64,000 nucleotides of DNA, from assembly GCF_014201335.1 (NCBI RefSeq), contig NZ_JACHEB010000004.1, forward strand, positions 310,001 through 374,000. Direction: 5' to 3'. The notes under the pieces were generated by a model. It did no database searches and was not told where the DNA came from. It was given only the letters and a program-made list of their open reading frames with translations. The position numbers and the translations under genes are program-made. Every line of letters starts with the position of its first letter. Positions within the stretch are counted from its first letter, which is position 1. Of this stretch, positions 5,812 to 22,025 are shown in pieces. The stretch comes from Tunturiibacter gelidiferens. GTDB lineage: Bacteria; Acidobacteriota; Terriglobia; Terriglobales; Acidobacteriaceae.

Positions 5812-5849
5812 CTCCGACAGGTCGGAGTCAACTCCGATCTATCGGAGTT
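5812..5849. promoter_or_regulatory. Tandem palindrome pair, putative operator
   Basis: The first site is CTCCGAC-AG-GTCGGAG (5812-5827); the second is AACTCCGAT-CT-ATCGGAGTT (5830-5849). Their centres are exactly 20 bp apart, two helical turns. They lie between the divergent phosphatase and sulfatase genes. Perfect arms and helical phasing suggest cooperative binding of a dimeric repressor such as a TetR-type protein. The same 16-bp palindrome recurs at 13891-13906. Confidence 0.65.
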
Positions 5850-5958
5850 GATGAAAATGACGGACGCTCTTTGGCCGCACCCGAACACCTCTAAATAGAG
5901 GCCACTAGGCGCTTACGCATTTCATTGGAGGCATCGGTGAATTGGTCTTCTACGTGCT

Positions 5959-6061: not shown

Positions 6062-8773
6062 ATGTTCGTGCGTCGCAGCGAAGTTCCCGTGCTCGATTCA
6101 CCAAAATGGTCAAACCGAGTATTTAAGGCGATACGAACTATTTCTAAGCTCGCCGCATTCGCAGCCATATTTCCGGCTGCGATGGCTTCAGGCCAGCAAG
6201 TCACTGGCGATTTGGGCTCGCCCAGCGCTACAACGACAATCGACGGAAAGCAGTTGCCGCGGCCAGATCCGCCGTTCGGCGGGGTGATCAAGCAGAGCGC
6301 TGTGGAGTCGACACCCTGGTGGGCACCGCGTATCGTGCCGCCTAAGGGTGCGCCCAATATCCTGCTGATCATGACGGACGACCAAGGGTACGGGGTCTCG
6401 GGGACATTCGGCGGTGTAATCCCCACTCCTTCACTTGACCGCGTCGCAAGAGCGGGGCTGCGCTATACGCAGTTTCATTCCACAGCTCTTTGTTCCCCGA
6501 CCCGTGCCGCGCTAATTACAGGCCGCAACCATCACTCGGTAGGCACCGGCATCATTGGCGAGCTCTCCACGGGATTCCCTGGTTACAACACCATTATTCC
6601 GAAAGACGCCGCAACCATCGGTACGATTCTCAAGGGAAACGGCTACTCCACCTCCTGGTTCGGCAAGAATCACAATACCCCTGTCTTCGAAGAGAGCCCT
6701 GCGGGCCCGTTCGACCAATGGCCATCGGGTCTGGGTTTCGAATACTTCTATGGGTTTATGGGCGGGGAGACCGATCAATGGACTCCATTTTTGTTTCGGG
6801 ATCACACTCAGGTCTTCCCGTGGGTGAATAAGCCGGGTTACAACCTGACCACCGACTTGGCGGATGAAGCGATCAAGCACATGCGCGATCTGAATTCGTC
6901 GGCGCCCGACAAGCCGTTTTTTATGTACTACGTGCCCGGCGGCTCGCACGCCCCACACCAACCGACGAAGGAATGGCTCGATAAATTCAAGGGCAAGTTC
7001 GACATGGGTTGGGAGAAGATGCGAGAACAGATCTTCGCCAACCAGAAGCGATTGGGTGTAATCCCGGCAGGTGCTCAGCTCACGCCATGGCCCGATAGTT
7101 TACCGAGATGGGATTCGCTTACCGCCATACAAAAGAAAATCTACGCGCGGCAGGCAGAGGCGTTTGCCGCTTACACCGCATACACAGACTATGAAGCTGG
7201 TCGTGTCATCCAGGAAGTTCAAGACGAAGGCAAGCTCGATAACACCCTGATTATCTACATCGACGGAGACAATGGGACCAGCGCTGAAGGCAGTCTCCAG
7301 GGCACACCCAATGTGATGACTGCGTATAACGGGATCCTCAGTCTTCCTGAAGTCGTACAGGCGCTGAGCTATCGGGACTGGGGTTCTGACAAGACTTACG
7401 CGCACATGGCCGCGCCGTGGGCCTGGGCGTTTGATACTCCCTTCAAGTGGACCAAGCAGATCGCCTCGCACTTCGGCGGCACCAGGCAAGGTATGGCGAT
7501 CTCATGGCCCGGCCACATCAATGACGTTGGCGGGATTCGCACACAGTTTCATCATGTCATCGACATCGTGCCAACGATCCTTGAAGCCACTGGCATCCAA
7601 GCGCCTGAAGAAGTCGACGGAATAAAGCAGAAGCCCATCGAAGGCGTGAGCTTGGCCTATACCTTCGACCAGGCAAATGCTGAGGCGCCATCGAAGCGCG
7701 ACACCCAATACTTTGAGTTGGCAGGAAACCGCGCAATTTATCACGACGGATGGATCGCTAGTACGACGCCGCCTGCGGGCCCGTGGGAAATGGGACTAGG
7801 CAAACTACCCGATGTCGTCAACGGTTATAAATGGGAGCTTTACAACATCAGCCAGGATTATTCTCAATTCAACGACGTAGCTGCCCAATATCCCGACAAG
7901 CTCAAAGAGATGCAGGCGCTCTTCCTGAGCGAGGCTGCGAAATATAACGTGTTCCCGATGGACAACAGAGCGTTCAGTCGTATCGTCACACCACGTCCAA
8001 GCACGGTAGCCGGCAAGACGGAGTTCACGTACACAGGTGAGGTCTCCGGCATTCCACCTGGAAATGCGCCGAGCATTCTGGACCGGGACTACACCATGAC
8101 TGCAGACTTGACCATTCCCGAAGGTGGTGCAGAGGGAATGATCGTCACTATGGGCGGACGCTTCGGTGGCTACGGCCTTTACCTGTGCAGAAGCTTCAAT
8201 TGGTGGAACGTTGGAAGATTCATCAAGGCCGGAGGAGTTCTGCTATTCCTCATCGGACTATTTCTGACATGGCTTGCCATGAGAAGAAAGTGGTCGATCT
8301 CTGCACTACGATTCGGTCAGACCATCATGGCGTTTGGGGCGCTTGCTGTTCTTGCGGTCTTTGCGATTGCGATCCTGGGGATAGGTAAGGGCCGACCAGT
8401 GTTTGTTTATAATTTGCTGGATCTGAAGCGCTACCTCTGGCAAGGCAGCACCATAAGTGCCGGCAAACACCAACTTGTGTTTGACTTCAAATACGATGGG
8501 CCAGGTCCAGGGAAGGGAGGCACCGGCGTGTTATCGGTTGATGGCAAGGTCCTCGATCGAAAGACAATTCCACACACAATTCCTCTTGTGGTGACATTCT
8601 TTGAAACTTTCGACGTCGGCGTGGATACTCGTACCCCGATTGATCCAAGCTACGAGCTCCCGTTCCGCTTCACCGGCAAGATCGACAAACTCACTATCAG
8701 AGTTGGCCCGTCGCAACTTTCGGAGCCGGAGAAAGTTACAGCTGCAGAAACTATCCAAAAGGATTCAGACTAA
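6062..8773 (+). CDS. Arylsulfatase family protein with inserted membrane module (903 aa)
   Basis: The start has AGGAG seven bases upstream and is followed by a probable signal peptide ending near AAMASGQQ. ILLIMTDDQGYG (about residue 100) gives the metal-binding Asp pair. CSPTR at residue 144 is the formylglycine motif, and SWFGKNHN follows, so the catalytic core looks intact for type I sulfatases that hydrolyse sulfate esters in the periplasm. The C-terminal beta domain resembles that of large AtsA-type enzymes, but two hydrophobic helices (about residues 722-740 and 752-774) interrupt it between GGYGLYL and GRPVFVYNLLDL. This would tie the domain to the membrane and is unusual. No formylglycine-generating enzyme gene is visible. 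It is the first gene of the peroxidase cluster. Confidence 0.9.
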   Translation: MFVRRSEVPVLDSPKWSNRVFKAIRTISKLAAFAAIFPAAMASGQQVTGDLGSPSATTTIDGKQLPRPDPPFGGVIKQSAVESTPWWAPRIVPPKGAPNILLIMTDDQGYGVSGTFGGVIPTPSLDRVARAGLRYTQFHSTALCSPTRAALITGRNHHSVGTGIIGELSTGFPGYNTIIPKDAATIGTILKGNGYSTSWFGKNHNTPVFEESPAGPFDQWPSGLGFEYFYGFMGGETDQWTPFLFRDHTQVFPWVNKPGYNLTTDLADEAIKHMRDLNSSAPDKPFFMYYVPGGSHAPHQPTKEWLDKFKGKFDMGWEKMREQIFANQKRLGVIPAGAQLTPWPDSLPRWDSLTAIQKKIYARQAEAFAAYTAYTDYEAGRVIQEVQDEGKLDNTLIIYIDGDNGTSAEGSLQGTPNVMTAYNGILSLPEVVQALSYRDWGSDKTYAHMAAPWAWAFDTPFKWTKQIASHFGGTRQGMAISWPGHINDVGGIRTQFHHVIDIVPTILEATGIQAPEEVDGIKQKPIEGVSLAYTFDQANAEAPSKRDTQYFELAGNRAIYHDGWIASTTPPAGPWEMGLGKLPDVVNGYKWELYNISQDYSQFNDVAAQYPDKLKEMQALFLSEAAKYNVFPMDNRAFSRIVTPRPSTVAGKTEFTYTGEVSGIPPGNAPSILDRDYTMTADLTIPEGGAEGMIVTMGGRFGGYGLYLCRSFNWWNVGRFIKAGGVLLFLIGLFLTWLAMRRKWSISALRFGQTIMAFGALAVLAVFAIAILGIGKGRPVFVYNLLDLKRYLWQGSTISAGKHQLVFDFKYDGPGPGKGGTGVLSVDGKVLDRKTIPHTIPLVVTFFETFDVGVDTRTPIDPSYELPFRFTGKIDKLTIRVGPSQLSEPEKVTAAETIQKDSD

Positions 8774-8845
8774 AGTCGCAATGTCCCGCTTGTTCGAGGT
8801 TTGCGGGCAACTGCTGAAGACGGCGTGAAGCATGGAAGGAATCAG

Positions 8846-9514
8846 ATGGACCAGGATAAAAAACCGTCGGTTCTGTTCGTCTATTACAGCTTTACGCGCC
8901 AAACCCACAGAGTCGTCGAAGCCATGGCCGGGGCGTTGCGCGATCGAAATGTTGAGGTCACTGTGGCACAGATTGAATTTACAGATCGCCGCTACGCACA
9001 TCGGTTCGATAAATTCCCCATGCCTGACCCTTACCTCGACGTCTTTAAAATGATACCGGCCACACTCCGCCGGGCGACAGGGTCCATCCGTATTCCGGAC
9101 GGAACCACGGAGCGGGAGTACGATCTTGTCTGCATCGGTTCACCCACATGGTGGATGTCCATGAGCGTACCGGTCCGCTCGTTTTTGGAGTCCGATGCGG
9201 CAGCCAGGGTCCTGGCGGGAAAACCATTCGCCATAGCGGTTCTATGTCGACGCTATTGGCGGCACAACTTCAATAGTGTAAAAAGATTGGCAACTAAGCG
9301 CGGCGGTCTGTTTAAAGGCGGCATCCACTTTGTCTATCAAGGTGGCCAGGTACGGTCGATGCTTTCGCTTCTCAGTTATTTCGGATCGGGCGAGTATCGG
9401 TCTCGATATTTAGGCGTGAAGATCAAGCCAACGAATCTTCGGGAGTTCCAGCTTGAAGACGCCAGGGCTTTCGCGAACGAGTTGGCAAGCCAGTTGTTCG
9501 TTACTGCTTCCTAG
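8846..9514 (+). CDS. Flavodoxin-like fold protein (222 aa)
   Basis: The ATG at 8846 is chosen over a TTG at 8801 because GGAAGGA lies five bases before it. The N-terminus SVLFVYYSFTRQTHRVVEA is the FMN phosphate-binding loop of flavodoxin-like proteins, and YDLVCIGSPTWWMSMSVPV matches the second flavin loop. The C-terminal half carries extra helices. Such proteins are electron carriers or NAD(P)H:quinone reductases. It lies between the sulfatase and the peroxidase genes in the same direction with short spacers, so it may supply electrons in this cluster; that link is inference. Confidence 0.8.
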   Translation: MDQDKKPSVLFVYYSFTRQTHRVVEAMAGALRDRNVEVTVAQIEFTDRRYAHRFDKFPMPDPYLDVFKMIPATLRRATGSIRIPDGTTEREYDLVCIGSPTWWMSMSVPVRSFLESDAAARVLAGKPFAIAVLCRRYWRHNFNSVKRLATKRGGLFKGGIHFVYQGGQVRSMLSLLSYFGSGEYRSRYLGVKIKPTNLREFQLEDARAFANELASQLFVTAS

Positions 9515-9585
9515 CGGCGGTCACCCGCTTTCTCGGGAATCAGACAGGCAAGAACATGATGCACATCAGAAATGGAGATCAAGCG

Positions 9586-10446
9586 ATGAGTCAGAACCAC
9601 TTCACCCTCAGCTTTCCCCTAAAGTCGCCTGCAGATGCGAAAGCTGTGTCAGAAGAGTTGCCGCCGTTGATGACGGATCTGTTCAAAGTTGAAGATGCGA
9701 TCGGCACTGTCCACTATTCGCGCTTCACGGTACTTAGAGACAGGCTTTTTTTTCTCGGCGACTTCGACGGCGAATTCGGTCAGCTCATGACGGATTTCGC
9801 CACGCACTCGGGTTCTTTATTCGATACGATCTTCCAGCATGTATCGAATCCTCCACCTAGTCCAGTCTCCGCTAATTCAAATGCGTTTGTTGAATGGGCC
9901 GCAGAACACCTTCTCGGTGCTGCAACGCTCTTCAGCGCGTATCCAGATGCGACCGTCAAGGAGATTAAAGCCTTGGCGTCGGACGCTGCTGTCGAAGCGG
10001 CTGGAGTAATCAACCCATTTCTGTTGATCCTTCCCATCAAGTCGAAGCTTGCCTACGTGGAGGTAGAGTTGCTCCTGCGTGCGAGATCGCACAAGACCCA
10101 AAAGGATCTCGCCGCCGTTGGTACACCTCACTTCGCCCAATTCGTTCCTTTAGGGAACCTCGAGGTAGGTTTCTTTACCGTATACGACGGCTCCTTTGAC
10201 ACATACATCGCCGATTTCACTAAATTTATAGGACCCGTCTTCGATCTCGTATTCAAATTCACCAAAGACCCACCACCGTCTCCGTGCAGAAAGTATGTTC
10301 AGGAATTCATTGACTTTGGGAAAGGGATTAATCTCAATCCTATTGGGTTTTACAAAGCCTATCCTGGGCTCAGCGTGCAAGATATTCATGCTCTGGTTGC
10401 GGATAGACAGAGCGATCCAACGGCTAAAGTCGGCACTACACATTAA
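9586..10446 (+). CDS. Internally duplicated protein of unknown function (286 aa)
   Basis: The ATG at 9586 has GGAG eight bases upstream; an earlier ATG at 9556 lacks this. The protein consists of two related halves. Each has a beta-rich stretch (VHYSRFTVLRDRLFFLGDFD in one, FVPLGNLEVGFFTVYDGSFD in the other), then a PPPSP motif and a helix ending in a similar phrase (FSAYPDATVKEIKALASD and YKAYPGLSVQDIHALVAD). There is no signal peptide and no known catalytic motif. The gene ends 11 bases before the DyP peroxidase start, so the two are almost certainly cotranscribed. It could be a partner of the peroxidase or a ferredoxin-like dimeric barrel protein; the family is not recognised. Confidence 0.75.
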   Translation: MSQNHFTLSFPLKSPADAKAVSEELPPLMTDLFKVEDAIGTVHYSRFTVLRDRLFFLGDFDGEFGQLMTDFATHSGSLFDTIFQHVSNPPPSPVSANSNAFVEWAAEHLLGAATLFSAYPDATVKEIKALASDAAVEAAGVINPFLLILPIKSKLAYVEVELLLRARSHKTQKDLAAVGTPHFAQFVPLGNLEVGFFTVYDGSFDTYIADFTKFIGPVFDLVFKFTKDPPPSPCRKYVQEFIDFGKGINLNPIGFYKAYPGLSVQDIHALVADRQSDPTAKVGTTH

Positions 10447-10457
10447 AGAAGGACACT

Positions 10458-11999
10458 ATGGACAATCCTGTGCACACGAAAGCGGGAGGCGGCTTCCTGC
10501 ATAATCTCTTTGCGAAAAACGAGGAGAAGAACCATGCCGTTCCACCTGCGTCCGCGCTGAATCTTCCCGATGTCCAGGGACTTATCCTGCGCGGCTATCG
10601 AATGCCAATGGTGAGGCACTTTTTGTTGGAGGTCGGCGATCCGGCTGCTGCACGTAAACTGTTTGGCCGCTTCATCAGTGGCGACGAGTCGGACGCGCCA
10701 CAGATCACAACCGCGCGGGACTGGCATATAGGCTTTGAACCGGGACCACAGGACGATCCTGAAGAAAAACCTCGTCGCAAACCCGACTACTGCCTCAACG
10801 TCGGAATAACGTGGCCGGGAATGATTGCCTTGGAGATCAGAGACAGAGTGCCAACACTCTCCTTCAAATCCTTCGGAGCATTCACTGCCGGTGCCGCTCA
10901 ACGTGCCGCGCTGGTAGGTGACATTGGGCCAAGCGCTCCAGAGCACTGGGTCGGAGGCTTTGGTACAGGCACGGATCATGTTCTCGTCACCCTTCACGCC
11001 ATCAGTCCCGAAGCGATGGCCACCTACAGCGACCAGCTCGCCGCCCTATTTTCAAAAGGTGATGCCTTCAGGGAGGTATGGCGGCAGGACGGCGCGGCAT
11101 TGATGGAGATGAAAGACGGTCAACCTGTCCCTACTGCCAAGGTGCACTTCGGCTATACCGACGGAATCAGTATGACCACCATTCGCGGCGGTCCTGAACG
11201 ATACTCTCTTGACCATCAGCAGCCCTGCGAACCTTGGCTGTTTGTGCTGATGAACGAATCTGAAAATTACTTCGTGCCGGAGCCGCACGAACTTGGATTG
11301 AACGGCAGTTTTGCGGTGTTCAAGATGATCGAGACAGACGTGGTCGGCTTCGAGGAATTCTTGCAATCAAATAAGGAAAAGATTGATCCGGAGCTCCTCG
11401 CCGCCAAGATGTGCGGCAGGTGGCGCAACGGGGTGCCGCTTGCGCTGTCACCCGACACGGACAGACCTCCTGAAGGCATCGCTGCGGATCAATTTAATAA
11501 CTTCGAATATGTGAACCCCGATGGTTCGGGAGACCCCAAAGGGCTGCACTGCCCTATTGGCGCACATATGCGACGAATCAATCCCCGCGGCCAGCCGGTC
11601 ACAGGCCAAGGCCAGCCGGGCGGCAGCAATAATACTCACCGGCTAATTCGTCGTGGTCTGCCCTACGGACCGATGTTCGACCCCTCTCAGCCATACGACG
11701 GCATCAAGCGCGGACTGCTCGGATATTTCATTAACTCCAACATTGAGAACCAATATGAGTTTGTGCTTGGCGAATGGGTTAACAAAGCGGAGTTTGCCGG
11801 GTCGGTGCGGCTGAATCCCAAGTCGAAAGACCCCATGGTTGGGACTCAAGACCCGGAGGAGAGCATCTTCGTTATCCCTCAGAAAAACGGCTTGCCTCCG
11901 ATCAAAGTGACGGGGCTTTCAACCTTCGTTTCGACCAAGGCTGCAGCATATTGCTTTCTCCCCAGCGTCACCGCCCTCAAGTTCATATCCAGTTTGTAA
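10458..11999 (+). CDS. Dyp-type haem peroxidase (513 aa)
   Basis: The protein has the DyP hallmark GXXDG as HFGYTDGIS (about residue 232), where the Asp acts as acid-base catalyst. HCPIGAHMRRINPR (about residue 355) carries the likely proximal haem His. The end with FVSTKAAAYCFLPS is typical of the long DyP subclass. These enzymes oxidise dyes, phenols and lignin-like compounds with hydrogen peroxide. No signal peptide or Tat motif is seen, so it is probably cytoplasmic. AAGGA precedes the start. The neighbours (flavodoxin, duplicated protein, catalase-like protein) suggest a peroxide or aromatic-oxidation module. Confidence 0.9.
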   Translation: MDNPVHTKAGGGFLHNLFAKNEEKNHAVPPASALNLPDVQGLILRGYRMPMVRHFLLEVGDPAAARKLFGRFISGDESDAPQITTARDWHIGFEPGPQDDPEEKPRRKPDYCLNVGITWPGMIALEIRDRVPTLSFKSFGAFTAGAAQRAALVGDIGPSAPEHWVGGFGTGTDHVLVTLHAISPEAMATYSDQLAALFSKGDAFREVWRQDGAALMEMKDGQPVPTAKVHFGYTDGISMTTIRGGPERYSLDHQQPCEPWLFVLMNESENYFVPEPHELGLNGSFAVFKMIETDVVGFEEFLQSNKEKIDPELLAAKMCGRWRNGVPLALSPDTDRPPEGIAADQFNNFEYVNPDGSGDPKGLHCPIGAHMRRINPRGQPVTGQGQPGGSNNTHRLIRRGLPYGPMFDPSQPYDGIKRGLLGYFINSNIENQYEFVLGEWVNKAEFAGSVRLNPKSKDPMVGTQDPEESIFVIPQKNGLPPIKVTGLSTFVSTKAAAYCFLPSVTALKFISSL

Positions 12000-12064
12000 G
12001 GTTCACCGGTTACTTTTCTAAAAAAGGGCGAGGACACCGCGGTGGTTTGCGAAAGGAGATGTCA

Positions 12065-13150
12065 ATGTTGTTCTTAACCAGATGTTTCGGAGTGACAGGC
12101 AGCGACGCTGAGCGCGATCCTGGTGAAGAACAGGCGATCATCGACGAGATCACTCAAAGAGTTCTCTCACTGCAGGCAAAGTCCGCGGCCCAACAAAATC
12201 GACCGCTCGGTCGAGGAACTCATCCAAAAGGTATCTGCGTAGGTGCTGAGTTTGAAGTGTTGGACCATGCCCTAGGAAATGAGCCTGCTTTAGCTGCACG
12301 GCTTGCGAAAGGCATCTTTGCAAAGCCCGGTGTGTATCCCGCCATTGTACGTTTCGGAAACGCTGATCCCAAGATCAACTCCGATTTCAAGCCTGACGTT
12401 CGGTCGCTATCGTTTTCGGTCGACCTTACGCAGGGTGGCACAGCTCTTTCCACGACCGCCGGCCGTCAAGATTTTTCACTACAAAACGCGCGTCCGTTGC
12501 CCATCAATGACTCAAAAGCATTTCTTGCGGTCATGAAGGTACTGACGGCATCGAACCCGGGCGTTGGCCTATGGTCTCTCTCGCTCAAGGACAAGCTGAG
12601 AGCATTGAGGGCGATTATGTTGGCACAAATACAATCGCACCAAGCCATCAAGGCATACCAACAACTTCGCTATTGGAGCAACGTGCCGTTTCGCCACGGA
12701 CCGATTGACGTTGTGGAATATTCGGCGACACCATCTCAAACCAACTCAGCGAATCCCTTACAGAAGAGCAATCCGAAAGCTCTCCAGGACGAGCTTATTC
12801 GTCATCTAAAGGAAGATAGCAACATGAGTAGCTTCGATTTTGGGGTTCAATTTCTCGATTCCCAAAGGATGACCTACTGGGGCAAGCGTTATGACGCAAA
12901 CTTCTGGATTGAGAATGCAAGCCTGGTGTGGAATGAATCTGAGGCTCCTTTCCATAGAGTCGCAAGGCTTACTCTCATCCCCAACTCGCAACTTCCTCAG
13001 GCTGCAAGCCACGCGACATACTTCGATGTGACAGGACACTCAACTTCGGATAGCCGCCCAGTCGGGAGCATTAATCGCGCTCGTTGGCGTGCTGAGGCTG
13101 CGAGCAAGGAAGCCCGCTGGCGGGCGGCCGGCACAGGAAGTCAAAATTGA
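12065..13150 (+). CDS. Catalase-like haem protein (361 aa)
   Basis: The ATG at 12065 lies six bases after AGGAG; the ATG at 12059 abuts that site and is less likely. The sequence follows a reduced catalase fold: AIVRFGNADPKINSDFKPDV corresponds to the catalase barrel with its haem-side Arg, DVRSLSFSVDL to the next strand, and DFSLQNARPLPINDSKAF to the distal Asn region. It lacks most catalase C-terminal domains, like other catalase-related peroxidases (SrpA type). It closes the gene cluster and may remove peroxide or use it on organic substrates. The C-terminus is rich in Arg and Ala. Confidence 0.75.
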   Translation: MLFLTRCFGVTGSDAERDPGEEQAIIDEITQRVLSLQAKSAAQQNRPLGRGTHPKGICVGAEFEVLDHALGNEPALAARLAKGIFAKPGVYPAIVRFGNADPKINSDFKPDVRSLSFSVDLTQGGTALSTTAGRQDFSLQNARPLPINDSKAFLAVMKVLTASNPGVGLWSLSLKDKLRALRAIMLAQIQSHQAIKAYQQLRYWSNVPFRHGPIDVVEYSATPSQTNSANPLQKSNPKALQDELIRHLKEDSNMSSFDFGVQFLDSQRMTYWGKRYDANFWIENASLVWNESEAPFHRVARLTLIPNSQLPQAASHATYFDVTGHSTSDSRPVGSINRARWRAEAASKEARWRAAGTGSQN

Positions 13151-13870: not shown

Positions 13871-13906
13871 CTCCGACCCCTCGGAGTCTCCTCCGACAGG
13901 TCGGAG
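13871..13906. promoter_or_regulatory. Second tandem palindrome pair, putative operator
   Basis: CTCCGA-CCCC-TCGGAG (13871-13886) and CTCCGAC-AG-GTCGGAG (13891-13906) have centres 20 bp apart. The second site is base-for-base identical to 5812-5827. The pair lies in the 600-base spacer between two divergent genes for small secreted proteins; nothing else is recognised in that spacer. The repeated design points to one regulator acting at both loci. Confidence 0.65.
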
Positions 13907-14217
13907 CTTAGGCAACGGAGATGGTGTTCGCGCATATCCCGCATTTCGGTAACTCCATATGTTGCAGCGGCTAAGCCGTGCAACGCGAATGGGAGTCGGA
14001 TTGGCTTACTGATTGCTTCTACCTGTGGCATGTTCCGGATAAGTCTGAGAATGATCACTCAACCTAGTCGAGGTCACCGTCGACATATTCGCGAAGCGCC
14101 CTAGCGGTCCTCCGGTCAGCCTAAAGAATTCTAGCTGCACACCACACCGATCCCATTGGCGAACCAAAGCACAGTGGTCAAACAATTAGTTACTAGAGCG
14201 AGTTAGAGAGGAAAGAA

Positions 14218-21520: not shown

Positions 21521-21865
21521 CTAAAAACTAGTCATTGCCTCATTACAGCTCCCGGTCGGACAACTAAGACGCCATTGCCGAATACGGGCGAATCGTTTTC
21601 TCGATGTTGTTTCGGTGAGGTGGCAAGACTAGCCAGCAGATCCCCCTTTCGACGCGCTGGGGTCAATTGCAAAATTGAGTCAGCCAAGATTGTGTCGTTC
21701 TTTGTGTCGTAACCGTGTCGTCCCTACCGGTATCGGTCAGTGTCTCTCAGCATCGTTTGAGCGCCCGAGACTTAACCGTTTATGCCTGAAATCCTAGTGA
21801 ACACAGCCTCTTTATGTCACTTCATCTTGCTCGGTCTCGTTCGCTGTCGGTGGGGAGCCTGAATT
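21521..21865. other. Gene-free spacer before the tRNA remnant
   Basis: This 345-base stretch has no supported gene and no recognisable RNA. TTTTGGCCGCTAAAAA at 21512-21527, just before it, resembles 37289-37304. A tmRNA was considered because of the CCA end downstream and was rejected. Confidence 0.4.
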
Positions 21866-21907
21866 CGCAACGAGGAGGTCAGCGGTTCGATCCCGCTCAG
21901 CTCCACC
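21866..21907 (+). other. 3' end of a tRNA (Ala-like), possible att scar
   Basis: The sequence contains a perfect T-arm, AGCGG-TTCGATC-CCGCT (21880-21896), then CAGCTCC and a 3' ACCA, preceded by GAGGAGGTC as in the variable region of tRNA-Ala. The matching 5' acceptor strand (GGAGCTG) and a D-arm are not found upstream, so this is not a whole tRNA. Integrative elements leave exactly such tRNA 3' ends as attachment sites. Confidence 0.6.
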
Positions 21908-22025
21908 ATAGAAACCAATCCCAAAATAAAATTTGAGGCAATAAGGCACGAAATTGCGATCGGGTTCTCTGGCCGCTTTTTCTCAATCTCCATGACAACT
22001 GCTTACAATGTCTTCGAGGTGAATC

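Follow-up and report, generated by a model that had tools for sequence, protein, structure and literature searches.

An island-borne putative operon of sulfatase and peroxidase genes in Tunturiibacter gelidiferens and its predicted sigma-54-dependent regulon

The genes of the putative operon

The stretch of DNA considered here, called the window, comprises 64,000 nucleotides of Tunturiibacter gelidiferens (Acidobacteriota; NCBI RefSeq assembly GCF_014201335.1, contig NZ_JACHEB010000004.1, positions 310,001 to 374,000). It is part of contig C4 of a 6.18-Mb genome, designated G000. Between positions 6062 and 13150 lie five genes on a single strand, encoding in order a sulfatase, a flavodoxin-like protein, a duplicated protein (DUP), a DyP-type peroxidase (DyP), and a catalase-like protein (CAT). 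The first-pass annotation, made from the letters of the window, had described five same-direction genes with short spacers, and its coordinates, strand, and spacers hold. The distances from stop to next start are 72, 71, 11, and 65 bp in gene order, and a purine-rich stretch precedes each of the five starts. Scans for ordinary sigma-70 promoters and for terminators gave yields not above those from shuffled sequence.

The first gene (6062..8773, plus strand, as are all five) encodes a sulfatase of 903 amino acids. It carries a PF00884 domain (E 1.4e-55) and the C-x-P/A-x-R motif of type I sulfatases, here CSPTR; the sulfatase maturase family PF03781 is present in the same genome. Its N-terminus, judged by eye, resembles a signal, and two membrane-like segments are inserted in its C-terminal domain at approximately residues 708-776 (8183..8389, plus strand). 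These segments are also seen in the copies at loci L044 and L049, and are not found in two Verrucomicrobia copies (L045, L046). Unlike the sulfatase, the other four proteins have no membrane-like segment. The substrate of the sulfatase and the oxidases are, by this prediction, probably in different compartments.

The second gene (8846..9514) encodes 222 amino acids. The first-pass annotation had called its product a flavodoxin, an electron carrier. No Pfam family matches it, and its NCBIfam match (E 2e-5) is weak, at 24 bits where the cut-off is 198. It was dropped as a core member of the set, as no relative at E 1e-4 was found in the other loci; the gene is seen in the window only.

The product of the DyP gene (10458..11999, 513 amino acids) carries the motifs GYTDG (residues 232-236), GAHMRR, and HRLIRR. 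D235, H370, and R395 are in place, and these three, together with G232 and G236, are invariant in ten aligned rows. Thus, the protein has the GxxDG motif, the proximal His, and the distal Arg of DyP-type peroxidases, even though its match to TIGR01413 (E 3.3e-20, score 72.6) falls below the cut-off of 100.5. The best matches among solved structures are 8re3, 8re2, 7anv, and 7d8m; 5c2i and 4g2c rank below them. Class V members are among these PDB relatives.

The last gene (12065..13150) encodes CAT, whose relatives are named "catalase family" proteins and include one from pNGR234a (y4iL). It matches no curated Pfam or NCBIfam family; there is no match to PF00199 at E 0.001, and two of its relatives match weakly, below the cut-off. 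CAT keeps, in the alignment, the distal H53, N141, and an NRAR element. Catalases hold their haem through an axial Tyr in the motif RxxxY. The position of the presumed axial Tyr is taken from the alignment and from its RxxxY context. Tyr stands there in 17 of 17 other relatives, three of which (L106, L108, L110) are very similar to one another, whereas the CAT copies of clusters like that in the window have Glu in six of six cases; in the window this is E344, whose codon is at 13094-13096 (plus strand). The same clade shares an insert of approximately 11 residues. The AlphaFold model (pLDDT 31) is useless and the solved relatives include none that is credible, so the haem site is judged from the alignment. 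CAT is, on these grounds, probably not a catalase. The "two kinds of haem peroxidase" of the first-pass annotation are therefore not secure.

CAT is not always found with DyP. It was seen in only three of 30 short DyP loci from the class, where the flanks extend approximately 1.5 kb, and four CAT loci (L062, L063, L065, L067) have no DyP that a profile finds; in L062, a gene named "peroxidase family protein" lies beside CAT. The relatives of CAT in L057-L059 are without the distal His.

DUP and its linkage to DyP

The third gene (9586..10446) encodes DUP, 286 amino acids long, which the first-pass annotation had recognized as duplicated and of no known family. Both points are borne out. Both halves match a profile of the C-terminal domain (E 7.5e-26 and 4.4e-61), making this a true internal duplication, and neither the window protein nor the other members tried match a Pfam or NCBIfam family.

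The domain is a near-constant partner of this group of DyPs. In 30 loci of the class, gathered with DyP alone as the query, a DUP-family gene lies directly upstream of DyP (within approximately 260 bp) in 28. The two exceptions are L039, which is cut by a contig end, and L019, which has no DUP within 1.4 kb upstream. The same holds for 13 of 13 plasmid loci, Deinococcus radiodurans included; these were picked for variety (11 of 58 DyP records, plus two from a search with CAT), and two of the 13 are unannotated. One locus stands in both counts, since L023 of the class set is, letter for letter, L113 (plasmid pACIX901 of Granulicella tundricola MP5ACTX9). The profile that finds these genes was iterated on the loci themselves, but the seed profile had already caught most of the members. 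The window protein, used as a query against plasmids, found none; the plasmid members surfaced only with the profile. They come as a single domain, as two adjacent genes, or as a two-domain fusion. The PF04261-matching DyP of the same genome (L001, L061) has no DUP-family neighbour.

Other arrangements were also seen. A second DUP-DyP pair, with a single-domain DUP, lies elsewhere in the genome (L053, G000:C12:1-2500), and the 12 kb read there contain neither CAT nor a sulfatase. In L054-L056, a DUP-family gene is followed by a gene for a protein of 554-601 amino acids instead of DyP; the two of these three proteins that were scanned (L054, L055) match no Pfam family above the cut-off. A two-domain DUP and DyP are found in L057-L060, beside a GMC oxidoreductase (L057, L058), cytochrome-c-like proteins (L057-L059), or a GST-P450 fusion (L060).

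The fold of DUP may be that of a dimeric alpha-beta barrel protein with two ferredoxin-like domains. This comes from an AlphaFold model that is poor overall (mean pLDDT 56), with a better N-terminal half, in which a beta-alpha-beta-beta-alpha arrangement is seen twice. Its structural neighbours are ABM/SchA-type and mutarotase barrels. The best has a Z of 10.1 with a root-mean-square deviation (rmsd) of 7.9 over 197 residues, and the next a Z of 8.8 with an rmsd of 2.6 over 102 residues. Unrelated enzymes are among the rows down to Z 6.3, and a Z below 8 can reflect no more than a shared arrangement. As a neighbour, HemQ is seen only in the Foldseek list (E 0.004), and a sequence profile of DUP found no match among solved structures.

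Recurrence of the gene set and the island that carries it

With the 286-residue protein as the query, five further loci were found in genome contigs (L044-L048), and a search through 399 genomes of the class added two full-length relatives, in G262 and G245, to the window itself. Seven loci, the window included, have a two-domain DUP at 60% identity or more. DyP directly follows it in all seven, and CAT comes next in all six where the contig reaches it (L045 ends first). A sulfatase 71-72% identical to that of the window (sulfatase 1) lies beside this trio in five of the seven: the window, L044, L045, L046, and L049. It is upstream of the trio in four, with the flavodoxin-like gene between them in the window, and downstream in L044. 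L047 has instead a second type (sulfatase 2; 62-66% identical to the sulfatase 2 of G262, G076, and G000), which follows at 0.85 kb. All that L048 has of the set is part of a DUP domain and part of a sulfatase 2. In G076, DUP and DyP seem to have dropped out, for a single open frame runs from sulfatase 1 into what is left of CAT. Thus, the gene-neighbourhood comparison proposed in the first-pass annotation finds sulfatase, DUP, DyP, and CAT together in contigs of Acidobacteriota, Verrucomicrobia, and Planctomycetes; it does not find the flavodoxin-like gene. With four of the five genes adjacent elsewhere, the outcome named in that annotation as refuting, no such neighbourhood in any other genome, does not hold.

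Chance would not be expected to place sulfatase 1 there in five of seven loci: among 299 genomes searched, 45 have a relative of it at E 1e-100, but only four (G000, G295, G262, G076) have one with approximately 70% identity or more. The two halves of the set also occur apart. Sulfatase relatives with approximately 71% identity exist without the peroxidase trio within the 20 kb read; one of these (L100, G295:C1:1593001-1613000) also has no exact paired site, of the kind described below, in its stretch. The trio, in turn, is found without the sulfatase in named plasmids. No accession is shared between the best 60 of 81 sulfatase records and the best 60 of 68 DyP records from plasmids, and in one plasmid, from Rhodococcus, an arylsulfatase gene (41% identity) and the DUP gene lie 2.7 kb apart.

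In T. gelidiferens, the operon is carried by an island of 24.25 kb (G000:C4:307614 to 331864), whose left end is outside the window. A 56-bp repeat, identical in both copies, marks its two ends and takes in the 3' end of a tRNA-Ala(CGC) gene; the right copy is at 21864..21919, and with it the island spans G000:C4:307614-331919 (window part 1-21919). A tyrosine-integrase gene (PF00589) lies beside the tRNA, and both G+C content and skew shift at both ends. The cargo includes, besides the integrase and the operon, a DUF3631 protein, a 5'-3' exonuclease, a SpoIIE-type phosphatase, and Ku. In relatives G131 and G175, the tRNA-Ala is intact and lies approximately 160 bp from the same right-flank sequence. 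The left flank of G131 matches only around the tRNA, so that the site is unoccupied there without full collinearity being shown; in G263, approximately 2.1 kb separates two halves of the right flank. An integrase, direct repeats of a tRNA 3' end, and an unoccupied site in relatives are the marks of a tRNA-borne integrative island. Tyrosine integrases have an HxxR motif, in which this integrase reads Cys for Arg; its present mobility is therefore doubtful. G197 has a different insert of 14.4 kb at the same tRNA, with no match to the window's part of the island, and the tRNA-Ala site is likely an insertion hotspot.

Putative paired operators and a predicted activator

Before the operon, at 5812..5847, the palindrome CTCCGA-N4-TCGGAG occurs twice with a 20-bp step (starts at 5812 and 5832). 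A second such pair lies beyond the operon at 13871..13906 (13871 and 13891). Each is followed on the plus strand, 131 bp from the start of the site, by an element resembling the -24/-12 promoters used by sigma-54: TGGT-N8-TGC at 5943..5957 and TGGC-N8-TGC at 14002..14016. Downstream of the first is the operon. Downstream of the second is a stretch (14030..14104, plus strand) similar to the beginning of the ABM gene found ahead of sulfatase 2 in other places, within a 238-bp match (70.6%) to the site-ABM region of G131; it is probably a relic, and is followed by genes for a 101-residue protein and a DUF2092 protein.

Four other paired sites are found in the genome, to give five exact pairs and one with a single mismatch; the reversed pattern, used as a control, gives none. 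The site at C11:104783, which is off the island, precedes a 70% identical paralogue of the sulfatase. That at C1:118899 (the one with the mismatch) precedes HAD, DUF1254/DUF1214, and OmpA genes. That at C1:135900 precedes genes for ABM, sulfatase 2, DUF4136, a 241-residue protein, a patatin, and DUF3300. The last, at C1:137937, has a gene for a 283-residue protein on one side and an activator gene on the other.

Since G262 holds such genes in one stretch, the genes tied by paired sites in G000 are neighbours in G262. This stretch (L049, G262:C21, 1-13300) contains genes for DUF2092-like, 241-residue-like, and bestrophin-like proteins, sulfatase 2, OmpA, sulfatase 1, DUP, DyP, and CAT. It would be the clustered form of the predicted, dispersed regulon.

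The pattern TGGY-N8-TGC is present at all six sites in G000, at 120, 124, 131, 131, 131, and 134 bp from the site start and in one direction only; the fuller TTGC is found at four of the six. It is present at all five sites in relatives, at 131-134 bp, the first G263 site having another at 90 bp in the opposite direction. At 115-140 bp from random points of the sequence, the frequency of this pattern is 0.0066 per direction; for this comparison, both the pattern and the distance range were chosen once a consensus scan had been run over these sites. Most single scores in that scan are not significant alone. The strength of the finding lies therefore in the constant distance. No such element points towards the SpoIIE-type phosphatase gene.

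Single palindromes were not used, because up to one mismatch there are 35 of these (12 exact) against 15 for the reversed pattern. A lone exact site at C3:196226 was set aside, being inside a long open frame.

The activator gene (G000:C1:138181-139812) encodes a protein with GAF, AAA, and HTH parts. PF00158 is matched at E 7.8e-72, GAF is matched as well, and HTH_8 is matched at E 8e-4, below the cut-off. The Walker A sequence GETGTGKE and a GAYTGA loop are both present, as in sigma-54 enhancer-binding proteins. Exact pairs occur in four of 120 relatives (G000, G263, G131, G175), and an orthologue of the activator (77-100% identity) occurs in exactly those four, all from a single genus and not independent of one another. 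A pair with two mismatches in G218, which has no activator orthologue, was taken as chance. These patterns suggest a sigma-54 regulon in which the predicted activator acts at the paired sites.

Interpretation and comparison with known systems

The reading preferred here, at about even odds, is that the five genes form an island-borne operon of a sigma-54-dependent regulon that joins periplasmic sulfatases to a cytoplasmic module for organic peroxides. Here, the GAF-AAA-HTH activator would bind the paired palindrome at 5812-5847, and transcription would be driven from the element at 5943-5957, with the operon as one unit. Sulfatase 2, the paralogue of sulfatase 1, and the DUF1254 and OmpA envelope genes would be switched together with it from elsewhere in the genome. 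The sulfatase would act on sulfate esters in the periplasm, and DUP, DyP, and CAT would act together on peroxides in the cytoplasm. DUP might control the substrate, the haem, or the oligomer state of DyP.

The targets of the trio would more likely be organic (lipid) hydroperoxides than hydrogen peroxide. This leaning comes from the fatty-acid genes near the trio in six of 11 annotated plasmid loci (Novosphingobium, Sphingobium, Roseomonas, Paracoccus, Deinococcus, and Acinetobacter), together with the patatin gene in the sulfatase 2 run. The plasmid genes are for oleate hydratase, hydroxyacyl-CoA dehydrogenase, thioesterase, or acyl-CoA dehydrogenase. The reported absence of catalase activity in DRA0146, a relative of CAT (PMC7247583), also counts in favour.

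A bolder form of this reading is held only tentatively. It proposes a hitherto undescribed sigma-54 stress regulon that couples the sulfatases to a cytoplasmic machine for organic hydroperoxides, built from DyP, an obligate partner DUP, and a catalase-fold CAT in which any bound haem would be held by Glu in place of Tyr, with DUP giving class V DyPs their physiological substrate.

Several observations weigh against the preferred reading. Within the predicted regulon, the -24/-12 element at C1:137937 points at the gene for the 283-residue protein and not at the activator gene, and the -12 half of the operon's own element is weak (TGC, not TTGC), as is that of the 283-residue gene. Outside it, the stretches of G262, G245, and the metagenome-assembled genomes examined contain no exact paired site, and G262 and G245 have no orthologue of the activator; these two must therefore regulate the genes otherwise. 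As for recurrence, L050 has no sulfatase of either type within its 20 kb, L044-L048 are fragments of metagenome-assembled genomes that may be misbinned, and L045 and L046 may be one lineage. The trees of DUP, DyP, and CAT (six rows each, with several weak nodes) disagree, for which reason no joint movement of the genes as one block is claimed. Five of the 11 annotated plasmid loci have no fatty-acid gene in the stretch read, and the Novosphingobium, Sphingobium, and Roseomonas neighbourhoods, which share gene order and have near-equal sizes, are not independent.

The main rival is sulfur starvation, considered unlikely but the best of the alternatives. Here, the activator would sense lack of sulfate, the sulfatases would scavenge sulfate esters, and DyP and CAT would provide a peroxide defence free of thiols. 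An ssuD gene does lie beside the trio in the Acinetobacter plasmid. However, no sulfate or sulfonate transporter or assimilation enzyme was found among the genes around the six sites that the Pfam scan covered (a subset of them), and several genes around these sites look like envelope proteins. The sigma-54 activator SfnR is not known to have a GAF-type sensor, which also counts against this rival. SfnR nonetheless offers a precedent for a sigma-54 activator in the response to sulfate starvation, according to the available part of PMC8234197. Sulfatases are likewise induced together with Ohr and LsfA in sulfur-starved Pseudomonas aeruginosa, although in the same study katA, katB, and the ahp genes are slightly down (PMC12581299, from the portion available).

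Hitch-hiking, in which a shared mobile island alone would explain why the genes adjoin and they would have no common function, is distinctly improbable. In its favour, the island carries other cargo, such as the Ku protein, and the gene trees disagree. Against this, contigs of other phyla have these four genes side by side as well, in two different orders, and the off-island sulfatase paralogue has the same operator and -24/-12 pattern.

The first-pass annotation had offered two readings, of which a peroxide defence joined to a sulfatase fits better than removal of sulfate from an aromatic compound followed by its oxidation. This latter, catabolic pathway could draw on the physical linkage of sulfatase to DyP in several genomes and on the action of DyPs on anthraquinone compounds (PMC8197335, in the part available), but it is the least probable of all, because substrate and peroxidases are probably in different compartments and sulfatase and trio each occur separately, while the five genes include none for ring cleavage or transport and several genes of the predicted regulon resemble those for envelope proteins.

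The preferred reading, if true, would place sulfatases and the DUF1254/DUF1214, DUF4136, and DUF3300 proteins of soil bacteria in a shared regulatory context. A review describes what DyP-type peroxidases really do as unclear (PMC8197335, as far as its available text goes), and the roles of bacterial class V DyPs are described as not established in the accessible part of PMC8395514. The role of DyP becomes directly testable through its near-constant partner DUP, the often accompanying third gene CAT, and an activator predicted to act at an operator of defined pattern. The first-pass annotation knew of no described pathway with this gene set. Searches of open-licence PMC papers likewise turned up no description of the set, of DUP as a partner of DyP, or of the regulon, and nothing on DUF1254/DUF1214 with arylsulfatase or on DyP-type peroxidase with oleate hydratase.

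The nearest known systems each share some part of what is seen here. The DyP locus of D. radiodurans has the same order of DUP-family protein, DyP, and catalase-like protein, but it has no sulfatase in the 7 kb read, has a single DUP domain, and has a catalase-like protein that keeps the Tyr. Here, DRA0145 and DRA0146 were matched by product and order from the available part of PMC5731708, and DRA0144 by position, as the record has other locus tags. For DRA0146, the relative of CAT, no catalase activity is reported in the available part of PMC7247583; an excerpt of another paper counts the Deinococcus relative among catalases (PMC7143949).

The y4iL-type proteins of the NGR234 plasmid and their relatives are also related to catalases, with the distal His and Asn aligned and an NRAR-like element near the C-terminus. 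The CAT of the cluster differs from these in its Glu for the presumed axial Tyr, in its 11-residue insert, and in having no PWH motif. Class V DyPs (AnaPX, DyP2) have the same GxxDG motif, proximal His, and distal Arg; the group sampled here differs in being nearly always preceded by DUP. SfnR-type regulation in Pseudomonas also ties a sigma-54 activator to organosulfur genes (PMC8234197, available part), whereas in T. gelidiferens it is sulfatases and a peroxide trio that would be tied to a GAF-type activator, through an operator defined by its pattern.

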